Positions 11,427-29,143 of a stretch of DNA of 64,000 nucleotides are shown piece after piece. The notes beneath the pieces are model-generated. The model had not been told where the DNA came from. It ran no database searches and saw nothing but the letters and a program-made list of their open reading frames with translations. How positions within the stretch are numbered: position 1 is the stretch's first letter; every line of letters begins with the position of its first letter. Both the position numbers and the translations under genes were made by a program. This DNA is from Prochlorococcus sp. AG-418-M08 (GTDB lineage Bacteria > Cyanobacteriota > Cyanobacteriia > PCC-6307 > Cyanobiaceae), in contig QCMG01000010.1 in the NCBI GenBank assembly GCA_003213955.1, positions 1 through 64,000 on the forward strand, in the 5' to 3' direction.

Positions 11427-12792
11427 TAATTTACTAAGAGCTCCAAACCAAAGTATTGAAGAGACTGGTTATGCCTGGTATGTAGGCAATGCTAGATTAA
11501 TCAATTTATCTGGTCGTTTATTAGGAGCTCACATTGCTCACTCTGGACTTATAGTCTTTTGGGCGGGAGCAATGATGCTCTTTGAGGTTAATCATTTTAC
11601 ATTTGATAAACCGATGTGGGAGCAAGGTCTGATCTGTATGCCACACGTAGCTATGTTTGGTTATGGAATTGGCCCTGGTGGTGAAGTAACTGATATCATG
11701 CCTTTCTTCCAAGCAGGTGTGGTGCATTTGATAGCTTCTGCTGTTCTTGGCTTCGGTGGTATTTACCACTCTTTAGCCGGACCAGAGAAACTTGAAGAAG
11801 ACTTCCCATTTTTCTCTACCGATTGGAGAGACAAGAATCAAATGACAAATATCCTCGGATATCATTTGATAGTTTTAGGTGTAGGTGCATTAGCGTGGTC
11901 AGTAAACTGGTGTTTTATTGGCGGAGCATATGACACATGGGCGCCTGGTGGTGGAGAGGTAAGACTTGTTAATCCGACTCTAGATCCAAGAGTTATTCTG
12001 GGATATCTATTTAGATCTCCATGGGGAGGCGCTGGTTCAATAATCGGTGTAAACTCCATTGAAGATATTGTAGGTGGACACGTCTATGTGGGTATAACTG
12101 CAATTATTGGAGGAATATTCCATATCTTCACTAAACCATTCGGATGGGCAAGAAGAGCGTTCATCTGGAATGGTGAAGGACTACTTAGTTATGCTCTTGG
12201 TGGAATTTGTGTAGCAAGTTTTATTGCATCAACATTCATCTGGTTTAACAATACTGCTTACCCATCTGAATTTTATGGCCCAACAAACGCTGAAGCTTCA
12301 CAGGCCCAAAGCTTTACTTTCCTAGTGAGAGATCAAAGAATTGGAGCTAACGTAGGTTCAACAATGGGACCAACAGGTTTAGGTAAGTATCTCATGAGAT
12401 CTCCAACTGGTGAAATTATATTTGGTGGTGAAACAATGAGATTTTGGGACTTCAGAGGTCCATGGTTAGAGCCTTTAAGAGGACCTAATGGATTGAGCCT
12501 CGAAAAAATCCAAAATGATATTCAGCCCTGGCAAGTTAGAAGAGCTGCTGAATATATGACTCATGCGCCTAATGCTTCAATCAACTCTGTTGGTGGAATC
12601 ATTACAGAGCCTAACGCCGTTAACTTCGTTAATTTAAGACAATGGTTAGCTGCCGCTCAATTCTTCCTAGGATGGTTTACATTTATCGGTCATCTTTGGC
12701 ATGCTGGACGTGCTAGAGCTGCCGCTGCCGGTTTCGAAAAAGGAATTGACAGAAAAAGTGAGCCAGCTTTGGAAATGCCTGATATTGATTAA
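11410..12792 (+). CDS. psbC: Photosystem II CP43 chlorophyll-binding protein
   Basis: 460 aa from the GTG at 11410 ([13 protein letters not shown]); the ORF-track start at 11383 is too early. GAGGAGG about nine bases upstream, inside psbD, is a strong ribosome binding site and fixes this start. Six transmembrane helices and the large lumenal loop E are present, with [14 protein letters not shown] carrying the arginine that contacts the oxygen-evolving cluster. It is co-transcribed with psbD and followed by a strong terminator. Confidence 0.98.
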
Positions 12793-20519: not shown

Positions 20520-21542
20520 TTAATCCCAACCAGCTTCTCTCATCATTCTTAGCGCCATTGCATTATTATTTCCAAGTTCCTCGACTGTAACTCCATCTGG
20601 AGTGAATTCTCCAAAGTTTTTGACAATCTGATTTTGATTAACCTCTTTTAATGGGTGTTCAAAGGTAGGGGCTGCTAAACCCTTACTTCCTTTAGGAGAA
20701 GCAAGAAACTCGAGGAGTTTAACTGCTTCAGCTTTATTTTTGGCATATTTAGCGACTCCTCCAGCACTAATGTTTACATGAGCTGGGGTAGGAGTAATAA
20801 CAGATGTTTTTCTAGAATACAAAGTATCCCTTCTACCATTTACACCTGCAAGCATTCTTGCGACATAGTAATGGTTAACTAAACCAACCCCACATTTTCT
20901 TTTCGAAACTGCCCTAACTATAGAAATATCTCCAGGGAAAAAAGGTTGAGAAACGTTAGAAATCATTCCGTTTAACCATGCTTTGGTAGCCTCTTGACCT
21001 TTATTTACAATTTGATTAGCTACTAAAGATTGATTATATGGACTCTTTCTATTCCTTAAGCACACTTTACCCTTTAAAGCTGGATCAGCAAGATCCGAAT
21101 AATTAGTTATTTTGCTTACATCTACAACTTTAGGATTAGCAACCATCACTCTGACTCTTCTTGTCAATGCGTACCATTCTTTGCCCGGATCTTTTAGTCC
21201 AGCAGGTACATCATTTTCTAGACTAGATGATTCAATTTTTTGAAGCAAATTTGCTTTAGCTGCATTAGTAATTCTTGCTGCATCAACTAGCAAAATTAAA
21301 TCAGCCTGAGAATTTTTTCCTTCTCTTTTTAATCTCTCTACAAGAGATATTCCTGCAGCTTCAATAAGTCTAACTTTAATACCAGTTTCTTCTGCAAATT
21401 TTTTATAAACGCTCCTATCAGTATTGTAATGTCTGCCTGAATAAACTCTAACTTCTCTTTCTGTAGAATTAGCAGGGAGTATAACATTAAAAAGAAATGT
21501 ACAGCTTATGACTGAATACAGCAATTTCTTAAATTTTTGCAC
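20520..21542 (-). CDS. futA: Ferric iron ABC transporter substrate-binding protein
   Basis: 340 aa periplasmic iron(III)-binding protein of the FutA/IdiA family. A signal peptide covers about residues 1-27. The mature start REVRVYSGRHYNTDRSVYKKF, and NHYYVARMLAGVNG further on, supply the tyrosines that bind iron in this group. Its permease and ATPase are not in the window. It is divergent from the PiuC-like gene with 102 bases between start codons, suggesting shared iron control; a confident Fur box could not be read. Confidence 0.94.
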   Translation of the reverse strand: MQKFKKLLYSVISCTFLFNVILPANSTEREVRVYSGRHYNTDRSVYKKFAEETGIKVRLIEAAGISLVERLKREGKNSQADLILLVDAARITNAAKANLLQKIESSSLENDVPAGLKDPGKEWYALTRRVRVMVANPKVVDVSKITNYSDLADPALKGKVCLRNRKSPYNQSLVANQIVNKGQEATKAWLNGMISNVSQPFFPGDISIVRAVSKRKCGVGLVNHYYVARMLAGVNGRRDTLYSRKTSVITPTPAHVNISAGGVAKYAKNKAEAVKLLEFLASPKGSKGLAAPTFEHPLKEVNQNQIVKNFGEFTPDGVTVEELGNNNAMALRMMREAGWD

Positions 21543-21644: not shown

Positions 21645-22310
21645 ATGAATTTTCTAACTTGCAAGCTACTAATTAAAGAGGAATTAAAGATACTAAAAAA
21701 TGATTTAAATAAACAAAATGAACTTTGGGAAAATGGAAAAATAACAGCTGGAAGTCATGCTTCAAAAGTTAAAGAAAATTTGCAATTAAATAAAAATTCC
21801 GATGTATCTAAAAAATATTCTCAATTAATCAGAAAAAAGATAATCTCTAACCCATTAATTAAAAGCTTCGCATTACCAAAAATAATCCATGGAATAATGT
21901 TCACAAAATCATTAAAAAATATGCATTATGGCAGGCATATTGACAATCCATTTATGTCTACAGGAAGATCAGATTTATCATTTACCATTTCTTTAACTGA
22001 CAAAGACAATTATCAGGGAGGAGAATTATTAATTGATACAATGAATTCAGAGAAAGAGTTAAAGCTAGATGCCGGAGAAATAATAATATATCCAAGTACA
22101 TACTTACATTCAGTAAAAGAAGTCAAAAATGGAGAAAGATTAGTATGCGTAGGGTGGATTGAAAGTTATGTTAAATCTATTGAAGAAAGAGAATATTTAT
22201 TTGATCTTGATGCAGGAGCTAAAGGTTTATTAGCTCGACATGGGAGATCAGATGAGCTTGACCTTATTTTTAAATCTTATTCAAATCTTCTTAGATTATT
22301 AGGCAATTAA
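21645..22310 (+). CDS. piuC: PiuC-like Fe(II)/2-oxoglutarate dioxygenase
   Basis: 221 aa from the ATG at 21645; the ORF-track extension to 21537 would reach into futA and is not supported. HYGRHIDNPFM gives the first His and Asp of the iron facial triad, STYLHSVKEV the second His, and NGERLVCVGWIES the arginine for 2-oxoglutarate. PiuC-family proteins (PKHD-type hydroxylases) are usually linked to iron uptake. Pairing with futA fits that; the substrate is unknown. Confidence 0.9.
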   Translation: MNFLTCKLLIKEELKILKNDLNKQNELWENGKITAGSHASKVKENLQLNKNSDVSKKYSQLIRKKIISNPLIKSFALPKIIHGIMFTKSLKNMHYGRHIDNPFMSTGRSDLSFTISLTDKDNYQGGELLIDTMNSEKELKLDAGEIIIYPSTYLHSVKEVKNGERLVCVGWIESYVKSIEEREYLFDLDAGAKGLLARHGRSDELDLIFKSYSNLLRLLGN

Positions 22311-22709: not shown

Positions 22710-24008
22710 TTAGAATTTAAATGTTGTTTCAAGAACAGCACCTTTGACATCTCTGCCTTCAACACCGGTTCTATCAGTTGTCCCAAATACTGCTGGAGTA
22801 ACCGTAATAGAATCATTAACTGCGTAAGAATAATAAGCTTCCCAAGCAAATGGATCAACAGCTTCGTCTTCCCTTGTTTGAGGCTGACCAAAAGCAACGC
22901 CAATTCTATCATCGACATTAAAGGCATCAGTCCAAGTTAAACCTACGAAGTAAGCAGTGGTGTTGGAATTTGTAGAAGCATCAGTTTCAGATGTGTCATA
23001 ACCTACAGAGATAGAAGGGATTGCCTTACCAGAATCTTCAGGTCTCCACCATCCTCTTAAACCGATATTTGTACTATCACCTTTGCCAGCGACACCATTA
23101 CCAGTTGGTCTTAATTTTCCTGATGCAGTTGAGTAGTAACTGTCCATCCAGCCGTTGAACTTCATATTAACCATTACTGAAGCAGAGTAAGTAGGCTTCG
23201 TAATACCTACTTGAGTTGCCCAACTAGTTGCTGATTCAGAAGTTCCCCAACCACCAGTAGAATCACCCTCTTGACTTACAGCATTTGTACTAATTGCGAA
23301 TCCATTATCTGCCTTGTAAGCATAACCAATTCCAGGATTAGTACTAGCACCATATGCAGCTCCATTTCCACCCAATGTGAATTGCTTAGTAACAGGTTTA
23401 TATATGGATGGAGTTGTGGCATGCATATAGTAGTTTTCAATTTTGGGACCTACCCAAAATGTATGACTTTCACCAAGAGGAAATGTGTACCAAATTTTAT
23501 CTATTTTTAATTGATCAGTGTTTCCTTTAGCTGAAGACAAATAAGTTCCATATGTAGTACTTTTCATCCAACCTTCGGTATTACCAGATTTTAACCTGAC
23601 GTATAGATTATCATCACCAGTAAAACTTGTATTAAGATTACCTTGCCACATGTAGTGAGCTCTAACAGATTCTCCTAGAGCTGCTTCTCCTACCTTTTCT
23701 AGTGCATTAATGGCTCCAACAGAAAAAACAACTTGACCATCTAAAGTCGTTGTATCTGAAAAAGAACCAGCTTCAAAAGTAGGTTGAGAATTTTCTATTC
23801 CCAGCTCTGAATCATTTGTTGTGACCAGCTTTTCGTTATTTTCATTAACGAAAGATTTACTGTCAAAAAATTTTTTAGAAGAAGAATTTATACTACTTTT
23901 GTAGTTTTTAATCCCTTCAATATTTAAAACGTCAGAAGCTTGTGCGATTGTAGGAGCAATTAAGCCCACAGATGCAGTAGCTAACAACATTTGTTGGAAG
24001 AGTTTCAT
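22710..24008 (-). CDS. Som-type outer-membrane porin
   Basis: 432 aa. Signal peptide ~1-24 (ending AQA-SD), then a short polar region. The sequence FEAGSFSDTTTLDGQVVFSVGA is a usual entry to the barrel of picocyanobacterial Som porins. Many amphipathic strands follow, and the chain ends in LETTFKF with a terminal Phe as expected for BAM insertion. An SLH domain is not evident. The leader carries GTGTGAGG overlapping the ribosome binding site, which matches the seed complement of the Yfr1 small RNA, so post-transcriptional repression is likely. Confidence 0.92.
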   Translation of the reverse strand: MKLFQQMLLATASVGLIAPTIAQASDVLNIEGIKNYKSSINSSSKKFFDSKSFVNENNEKLVTTNDSELGIENSQPTFEAGSFSDTTTLDGQVVFSVGAINALEKVGEAALGESVRAHYMWQGNLNTSFTGDDNLYVRLKSGNTEGWMKSTTYGTYLSSAKGNTDQLKIDKIWYTFPLGESHTFWVGPKIENYYMHATTPSIYKPVTKQFTLGGNGAAYGASTNPGIGYAYKADNGFAISTNAVSQEGDSTGGWGTSESATSWATQVGITKPTYSASVMVNMKFNGWMDSYYSTASGKLRPTGNGVAGKGDSTNIGLRGWWRPEDSGKAIPSISVGYDTSETDASTNSNTTAYFVGLTWTDAFNVDDRIGVAFGQPQTREDEAVDPFAWEAYYSYAVNDSITVTPAVFGTTDRTGVEGRDVKGAVLETTFKF

Positions 24009-24012
24009 TTTA

Positions 24013-24020
24013 CCTCACAC
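24013..24020 (-). promoter_or_regulatory. Probable Yfr1 small-RNA target in the porin leader
   Basis: On the porin mRNA the bases GUGUGAGG stand four bases before AUG. They pair perfectly with CCUCACAC, the core of the conserved single-stranded motif of cyanobacterial Yfr1. Published work in Prochlorococcus showed Yfr1 targeting som porin mRNAs at the ribosome binding site. The GAGG here is also the only plausible Shine-Dalgarno. Pairing is seen directly; regulation is inferred from that knowledge. Confidence 0.75.
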
Positions 24021-24027
24021 GAAAAAA

Positions 24028-24062
24028 ACCCATAAAATGGGTACCCATATTGTATCGAGTGT
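24028..24062 (-). promoter_or_regulatory. Porin promoter and leader hairpin
   Basis: Reading the minus strand, GATACAAT could be a -10 box, followed by ATGGGTACCCAT, then TTT, then ATGGGT and a run of seven T. The segment ACCCAT-TTT-ATGGGT folds as a six-pair hairpin with a U tract directly behind it, 20 bases before the porin ATG. It could be a terminator for glyQ read-through, an attenuator, or a 5' stabilising stem. ATGGGTACCCAT is itself a perfect palindrome. Confidence 0.5.
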
Positions 24063-24136: not shown

Positions 24137-25012
24137 TTAAATATCTTTTTTTAATAAAGGGAAGTTCAAAGACTCCCTTTCTTGCATCCATGAAGATGCT
24201 ACTTCTCTTGCTAAATTTCGAATTGTTTCTATGTATTGGGCACGATCAGTAACAGAAATTACTCCTCTTGCATCAAGCAAATTAAAGCAGTGACTGCATT
24301 TTAAAACAAAGTCTAAAGCAGGAAAAGTTAGTTTTTTATCAACCAGAGAATTAGCTTCTTCTTGGTACAAAGAAAATAATTTTTTAATATTATCAGGATT
24401 TGATTCTTTGAAATTAAATTCACATTGATTTTTTTCAAATTGAAGCCAAATATCACTGTAATTTAAATCTTTATTCCAATCTAAATCCCAAATACTTTCT
24501 TTACCTTGCAAAAACGTCGCGATTCTCTCTATTCCATAAGTTATCTCAATGGGAATTGGGTTACAGTCAACCCCTCCACATTGTTGAAAGTAAGTAAATT
24601 GAGTTACTTCCATTCCATCCAACCAAACCTCCCAACCTACACCCCATGCTCCAAGAGTAGGAGACTCCCAATTATCTTCTACAAATCTAATATCATGCTC
24701 TTTAGGATTAATTCCTAAAAACTCTAAAGAAGACAAATATTTCTCTTGAATTCCATCTGGAGATGGTTTAATTATCACTTGATACTGAAAATAATGCTGA
24801 GCCCTATTCGGGTTATCTCCAAATCTTCCATCAGTAGGTCTTCTACACGGCTCAGCATAAGCGACACTCCAAGGTTCTGGTCCAATTGCTCTAAGAAAAG
24901 TATGAGGATTCATTGTGCCTGCCCCTTTTTCAGTGTCATAAGGTTGCATAATCAAACAACCCTCTTCAGACCAAAATTTATTTAAGTTTTGAATTATATC
25001 CTGAAAAAACAT
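24137..25012 (-). CDS. glyQ: Glycyl-tRNA synthetase alpha subunit
   Basis: 291 aa from the ATG at 25012 ([14 protein letters not shown]), which aligns with the N-terminus of other cyanobacterial GlyQ. The ORF-track start at 25054 adds 14 residues without known counterpart; neither start has a clear ribosome binding site. Class II synthetase motifs are present: [34 protein letters not shown], and [13 protein letters not shown]. The protein pairs with GlyS, encoded elsewhere, to charge tRNA-Gly. Confidence 0.96.
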
Positions 25013-25102
25013 TGAATTTAAAAGTTTATTATACGGAGCAATGCCATGGATCATAATAACAAATCTACTTTAAAAGAAAAAAAATTAATTAATGAAAAAT
25101 TC

Positions 25103-28084: not shown

Positions 28085-29143
28085 CTAATTTTGTGTAATT
28101 TTTGTATTTTCTATATTGTCAAATGCTTGACCAATTTTCTTAAAGTCGAATCCCATAGCTCTTAGCGCATGCCATAAATGACCCTGTAAGAAAAAGAAAC
28201 CCAAATAAAAGTGAGTATTGGCAAGCCATGCTCTTGAACTATATGCTCCTGAACCTAAATCAACGGTATCAGTAAAATAAGGAGCAAATTCAAATTGAAG
28301 CTTCAATGGTTCCCCATACAGATCAACTGGGTAAATAGTTGTATTTGATGCACACCAGAATGCTGCAACAAAAGCCATATAAGAAACACCAACTACTGAA
28401 TAAGAAAGAATCGCCTCGGCACCAAGTAATCCTTTACCCTTGAATTCTGTATATTCACCAAATTGCTTTGTGCAAATATGGAAAACACCACCAATAATTT
28501 CCAGGAAGGCTAAGAAAGCATGACCACCCATAATATCTTCTAAACTATCAATTTTCAGGAAATCGAATTGGTGATTCCAAATAGCGGCAATATCCAAGTT
28601 GTAAACAACTTGTCTTGTTGAACCTATTGCAGGATCATAGATACCATGAACACGAGCCCATTCAACAAACATGATTGCTCCAAGTCCTAAAAATATTAGA
28701 TGATGACCTAATATAAAAGTTAATTTATCTGGATCATCCCACTCGAAATCAAATTTTTGAGGCTTACTATTTTCTGGATAGTCTCCAAGATCGCCTGCAA
28801 ATTTGTTGGAATGCAGTAATCCACCAGCTCCTAGTACCGCGGAAAAAATTAGATGTAATGTACAAATTACAACAATTCCATATGGTTCAGTGATAACTCC
28901 ATTTTCGATTCCGCCAATACCAATCCCCGCTAGGTGAGGTAAAACAATTGCTTTCTGCGCACCCATTGGAATACTGGCGTCATAACGTGCCAATTCAAAT
29001 AATCCAAAAGCCCCTGCCCAGAACATCATTAATCCTGCATGAGCAGCATGAGCAGCTATGAATTTACCTGAACGGCCAACAACGCCAGAATTTCCTGCGT
29101 ACCAGTCATAGGTAACATCAGATTTTCCGTAGTTTTGTAACAC
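28085..29143 (-). CDS. pcb: Prochlorophyte chlorophyll-binding antenna protein (Pcb/IsiA family)
   Basis: 352 aa six-helix chlorophyll a/b-binding antenna of the CP43/IsiA family, without the large lumenal loop E of PsbC. It starts at GTG 29143 (MLQNYGKSDVTYDWYAGNSG). Helix motifs with chlorophyll-binding His are clear: FIAAHAAHAGLMMFWAGA, TFILGHHLIFLG, GGHAFLAFLEIIGGVFHI, and LQGHLWHALRAMGF. It follows flavodoxin (isiB) by 143 bases on the same strand, an isiAB-like neighbourhood. That suggests an iron-stress Pcb rather than the constitutive PcbA; this is inference, and the exact class needs phylogeny. Confidence 0.95.
   Translation of the reverse strand: MLQNYGKSDVTYDWYAGNSGVVGRSGKFIAAHAAHAGLMMFWAGAFGLFELARYDASIPMGAQKAIVLPHLAGIGIGGIENGVITEPYGIVVICTLHLIFSAVLGAGGLLHSNKFAGDLGDYPENSKPQKFDFEWDDPDKLTFILGHHLIFLGLGAIMFVEWARVHGIYDPAIGSTRQVVYNLDIAAIWNHQFDFLKIDSLEDIMGGHAFLAFLEIIGGVFHICTKQFGEYTEFKGKGLLGAEAILSYSVVGVSYMAFVAAFWCASNTTIYPVDLYGEPLKLQFEFAPYFTDTVDLGSGAYSSRAWLANTHFYLGFFFLQGHLWHALRAMGFDFKKIGQAFDNIENTKITQN

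Follow-up and report, generated by a model that had tools for sequence, protein, structure and literature searches.

The leader of a Som-type porin gene in Prochlorococcus sp. AG-418-M08 raises the question of whether the ribosome binding site of this gene is simply a strong Shine-Dalgarno sequence or also a target of the small RNA Yfr1. In the window (the whole stretch of DNA analysed here, 64,000 nucleotides), the minus strand reads TACAATATGGGTACCCATTTTATGGGTTTTTTTC GTGTGAGG TAAA ATG, with the ATG at 24008 (Table 1). An earlier note on this DNA had described an 8-base complement of Yfr1 four bases before the porin AUG, and it was confirmed at 24020..24013 (-), where GUGUGAGG ends 4 nt upstream of the AUG. 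As a bare 8-mer, GTGTGAGG occurs only once in the window when both strands are counted (0.35 expected from shuffling) and 10 times in the genome, as does its reversed control. Counting was dropped as an argument since neither number shows enrichment, and the case is therefore carried by position and conservation. The 10 genomic copies include the antisense of the Yfr1 motif and that of the Yfr10 motif, and another is close to the 16S rRNA gene; the porin copy is the only one placed as a Shine-Dalgarno sequence, and the others, judged by eye, have no gene start downstream. A rough composition estimate puts the chance of finding GTGTGAGG near a start codon at about 4e-5 per start, or about 0.08 per genome. 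Given its conservation in 72 of 72 relatives (see below), the site is, on sequence grounds, beyond chance.

Table 1. Features of the porin locus in the window
Feature	Position	Strand	Evidence
Predicted Yfr1/Yfr10 pairing site GUGUGAGG, with Shine-Dalgarno core GAGG inside	24013..24020	-	sequence, conservation, MED4 leaders, duplex energy
UAAA spacer, site to AUG	24009..24012	-	sequence; TAAA in 63/73 leaders
Leader hairpin ACCCAU-UUU-AUGGGU	24028..24042	-	covariation; terminator-like scan match
U run after leader hairpin	24028..24022	-	sequence
TACAAT, probable -10 element	24049..24054	-	leader alignment consensus; TACART in most relatives
Som-type outer-membrane porin, subfamily A, 432 aa	22710..24008	-	NF033921, structure model, Foldseek
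glyQ, glycyl-tRNA synthetase alpha, upstream neighbour	24137..25054	-	PF02091 473 bits; synteny
PiuC-type Fe(II) dioxygenase, convergent downstream neighbour	21645..22310	+	NF003974 314 bits; synteny; ORF listed from 21537, TTG start
Periplasmic substrate-binding protein, iron-type	20520..21542	-	SBP_bac_6 58 bits; synteny

The deduced product matches the por_somb family (NCBIfam NF033921) with 84.2 bits (E 7e-24) and does not reach the curated cut-off of 100 bits; since the validated Yfr1 target PMM1121 of strain MED4 scores only 61.5 bits, this cut-off appears too strict for the lineage. The structure model has 16 strands (pLDDT 72.9, moderate confidence), and the best PDB match in Foldseek was OprB (4gey, E 8e-14), with PorB and OmpF also matched. 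The protein ends in F and carries a signal peptide judged by eye; neither Pfam nor a sequence comparison with solved structures yielded a match. Together, the por_somb match, the 16 predicted strands and the Foldseek matches support its assignment as a porin. The substrate-binding protein encoded nearby is one that we take to be IdiA/FutA-like, and the order glyQ - porin - piuC - idiA-like is complete in 65 of 73 related loci and partial in the rest. Three side observations concern porins and neighbouring genes: 1) A second porin of the same genome (L086) has GTGTTGAGG before its ATG, which is the Yfr1 site plus an additional T, and the same form occurs in MIT9312 at 671 kb. 2) In MIT9515 (L128, 1068010-1069254), a porin in the subfamily-B locus combines a subfamily-B type leader and N-terminus with a subfamily-A body, an arrangement suggestive of gene conversion or recombination between porins. 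3) Rfam matches to IsrR at 11824-12007 (-) and 28631-28741 (+) fall within two PF00421 genes, psbC and a pcb-like gene, on the antisense strand and probably reflect conserved CP43/IsiA-family coding sequence, not necessarily antisense RNA.

PMM1119 and PMM1121 of MED4, the latter located by us from its position beside Yfr21, are published targets of Yfr1 (PMC6778093, PMC3142192; Richter et al. 2010, as cited in PMC6778093). In E. coli, Yfr1 repressed the PMM1121 leader about 4-fold, and CRAFD-Seq recovered the same leader, the published evidence of repression coming from E. coli reporters and in vitro pull-down, not from living Prochlorococcus (PMC6778093). The leaders of PMM1121 (GTGTGAGGCAATTTATG) and PMM1119 (GTGTGAGGATTTTTATG) have the same GTGTGAGG in the same place as the window porin. 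The MED4 targets thus share with it the sRNA, the GUGUGAGG over the Shine-Dalgarno sequence, the protein superfamily and the start MKLF, whereas they differ in having a longer, AAUUUU-type spacer in place of UAAA, and 9–10 bp of pairing with no covarying leader hairpin seen, as compared with 8 bp and a hairpin in the window porin. The window porin, about 35% identical to PMM1121, was rejected as an ortholog of PMM1119 or PMM1121, because the porin tree places it in another clade (support 100/100), which is allied to porins from low-light strains and has no member in MED4, where only distant matches were found; a search of MED4 for a PiuC-type neighbour, run without a positive control of its own, also gave no match. 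Since this subfamily is absent from MED4, target studies in that strain could not have found the window porin. No paper naming it as a Yfr1 target was found in the literature searched, and it is very probably a previously unlisted target of a regulator known for its sister porins.

The earlier note had made its proposal of a probable Yfr1 target depend on the presence of the motif in the Yfr1 of the same genome and on its recurrence in related porin leaders, and on both counts the proposal held. The genome's own Yfr1 (Rfam RF01116, 53.8 bits versus a gathering score of 38) is located on another contig than the window (L010:1474-1527, minus strand). Its sequence, AUGGGGGAAACCCCAUGCUCCUCACACACUAAAUCGCCCGAUUUAUCGGGC, is predicted to fold into the two stem-loops around an unpaired motif linker that characterize the family, with CCUCACAC in this linker; it contains GCUCCUCACACAC, and its pairing site is unpaired with an opening cost near zero. 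The published Yfr1 undecanucleotide, ACUCCUCACAC (PMC2190773), is absent in its exact form from this copy, which reads GCUCCUCACAC: G replaces A at the first base of the 'ultraconserved' stretch, outside the pairing region. The genome also encodes Yfr10 (RF02362, 74.5 bits), which carries the complete, exact ACUCCUCACAC in a loop and adjoins a Cyano-1/Yfr2-type RNA, as has been reported from high-light strains (PMC6778093, PMC2518516).

The porin site is predicted to form 8 contiguous Watson-Crick pairs with the own Yfr1 (hybrid -12.3 kcal/mol), the best Yfr1 pairing among the 63 gene starts tested in the window (next, -9.8 and -8.7 kcal/mol). In a simple energy model that adds the opening cost of both partners to the hybrid energy, totals of -11.4, -9.9 and -9.4 kcal/mol were obtained for PMM1119, PMM1121 and the window porin (leader taken from its inferred start), respectively, which keeps the order of the published IntaRNA values for PMM1119 (-13.42) and PMM1121 (-10.54) (PMC3142192). 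With 75 nt of further upstream sequence included in the fold, the estimate for the window porin is only -6.5 kcal/mol, so the true 5' end matters; judged from the -10 element, the transcript probably starts near 24043.

Conservation was assessed in 73 related loci, 72 of them with a readable leader. GTGTGAGG is kept in 72/72 of these leaders, 4–5 nt before the ATG, with the base directly upstream being A, C or T and most of the upstream leader variable. Three features expected of a Yfr1 target site are thus present, namely complementarity of the leader, a motif-bearing Yfr1 in the same genome and conservation in orthologs; together with the identical 8-mer in PMM1119 and PMM1121, they support the predicted status of the porin as a target. 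Across the family, 195 of the 220 genomes, from 25 of the 31 genera, contain the pattern GTGTGAGG-N2-8-ATGAARYTNTTY (motif plus porin-type start), the reversed control giving 0; gene identity was checked on a sample of leaders, which belong to porins, and the pattern misses sites whose spacer exceeds 8 nt, as in one G149 copy.

We consider it highly likely that the leader of the window porin is the target site of a trans-acting sRNA. The CCUCACAC of the abundant Yfr1, exposed in the single strand that joins its two hairpins, would pair with GUGUGAGG over the Shine-Dalgarno sequence, four bases before the AUG, and this pairing would block ribosome binding and reduce porin synthesis. Yfr10, exposing the same letters in its loop, could use the same porin site, and Yfr2 would sequester Yfr1 and Yfr10 and so free it; we infer both the translational repression and the antagonism by Yfr2 from the work on MED4. 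A main role for Yfr10 in place of Yfr1 at this site, which would bring in control by light and darkness, seems rather unlikely. The own Yfr10 has the full ACUCCUCACAC in its loop, and MED4 Yfr10 is up in darkness and has part of the Yfr1 targets in common (PMC6778093); however, the validation of PMM1119 and PMM1121 used Yfr1, which is constitutively abundant, and the predicted energies of the two RNAs on the window site are equal and do not separate them. The Yfr10 family resembles Yfr1 in carrying the same motif in a loop but differs in structure and regulation, and no published effect of Yfr10 on the window porin subfamily was found.

Since the site overlaps the Shine-Dalgarno sequence, part of its conservation would be expected even without any sRNA, and GUGUGAGG could be only a strong, family-specific Shine-Dalgarno sequence plus an enhancer upstream of it, passed on together with the gene and matching Yfr1 by coincidence. 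GAGG is indeed the Shine-Dalgarno core, and the orthologous leaders show little change in the spacer and first codons either, so that conservation alone cannot tell sRNA pairing from translation. However, GUGU, which is not needed for ribosome binding, is as invariant as GAGG; the identical 8-mers of PMM1119 and PMM1121 belong to experimental Yfr1 targets (PMC6778093); and the 8-mer outlasts replacement of the spacer (TAAA, AATTTT, ACCCC or TTCCCCC) and of the upstream sequence across genera. This reading is therefore improbable.

Genomes lacking Yfr1 bear on the same point. The Rfam model finds no Yfr1 in 14 of the 220 genomes; these belong to a few genera and include SS120 and MIT9211, in agreement with PMC2190773. 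The porin pattern is kept in 4 of these 14 genomes versus 191 of the 206 with Yfr1 (p 4e-8 at the genome level), which would argue against a Shine-Dalgarno function alone; at the genus level the association of Yfr1 loss with pattern loss is not significant (p 0.16), and leader counts (7/13 vs 17/21) gave p 0.13. Site loss was rejected as proof of co-evolution, since the genomes come from few related genera. The 8-mer is also kept in the Yfr1-less MIT9211 and SS120, as expected if it served translation only. SS120, MIT9211 and their low-light relatives without Yfr1 encode a short element, GGACA-CUCCUCACACAAUU-UGUCC, followed by a terminator-like hairpin and a U run, for which no above-threshold match to the Rfam Yfr10 model RF02362 was found. 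Yfr10 has been reported in SS120 (PMC6778093), and the SS120 copy of the element is probably this RNA. Such Yfr10-like elements with the motif would explain the persisting sites in these strains. The element, GGACACTCCTCACACAATTGTCC, followed by a terminator, was seen in L183, L195, L197, L192, L198 and L200 (minus strand) and L188 (plus strand), covering Yfr1-less low-light genomes and G115. In the Yfr1-less genus g11 (L159, L173), the porin leaders are without GTGTGAGG, one of them having AAGGAG instead.

A stabilising or activating effect of pairing on the porin mRNA, or a role of this abundant mRNA as a Yfr1 sponge, is as improbable as the pure Shine-Dalgarno reading: som mRNA is among the longest-lived MED4 transcripts (PMC2897979) and the authors of PMC6778093 suspected stabilising effects for ppa, but Yfr1 repressed and did not activate the PMM1121 leader in E. 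coli, and the window site covers the Shine-Dalgarno sequence.

A further element of the leader is a short hairpin that lies downstream of the probable -10 element and ahead of the Yfr1 site. In 43 leaders, both sides change in 5 of its 6 pairs, with 17 double-change cells versus 5.6 in shuffles (0/500 shuffles as high). None was seen in the MED4 som leaders. Similar hairpins lie upstream of the site in several porins from other genera; for this reason a glyQ terminator was thought unlikely, although the upstream genes in those genera were not compared. The hairpin is possibly a 5' stabiliser of the porin mRNA, given the very long life of som mRNA in MED4 (PMC2897979).

In enterobacteria, MicF and MicC control OmpF and OmpC, the antisense sRNA blocking the ribosome site of the porin mRNA. 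The sRNA and site of the window porin are unrelated to these, and MicF and MicC are Hfq-dependent. Closer in kind are the Yfr1 targets of Nostoc sp. PCC 7120 (alr0834, alr4550 and others), which are likewise outer-membrane protein mRNAs, predicted or shown, but from a distant lineage and encoding other porins (PMC6974561).

The best documented cyanobacterial link between porins and an sRNA concerns two MED4 genes; sequestration of the porin Shine-Dalgarno sequence by Yfr1 would carry it over to a subfamily that MED4 does not have, and to most of the family. More tentatively, at somewhat under an even chance, the GUGUGAGG leader may be a family-wide code through which Yfr1, Yfr10 and, where Yfr1 has been lost, Yfr10-like substitutes together determine how much of each major porin subfamily is made in Prochlorococcus and marine Synechococcus, with the motif kept across genera by selection for pairing and the covarying 5' hairpin acting as a second, subfamily-specific control. 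The window porin may be the only porin of its own genome with a perfect Yfr1 site. The PiuC-type dioxygenase and iron-type binding protein nearby, whose order is conserved in at least 65 of the 73 loci, hint that Yfr1 reaches an iron-associated porin; such control would fit the statement in PMC6974561 that a Yfr1 mutant grows poorly when iron is limiting.
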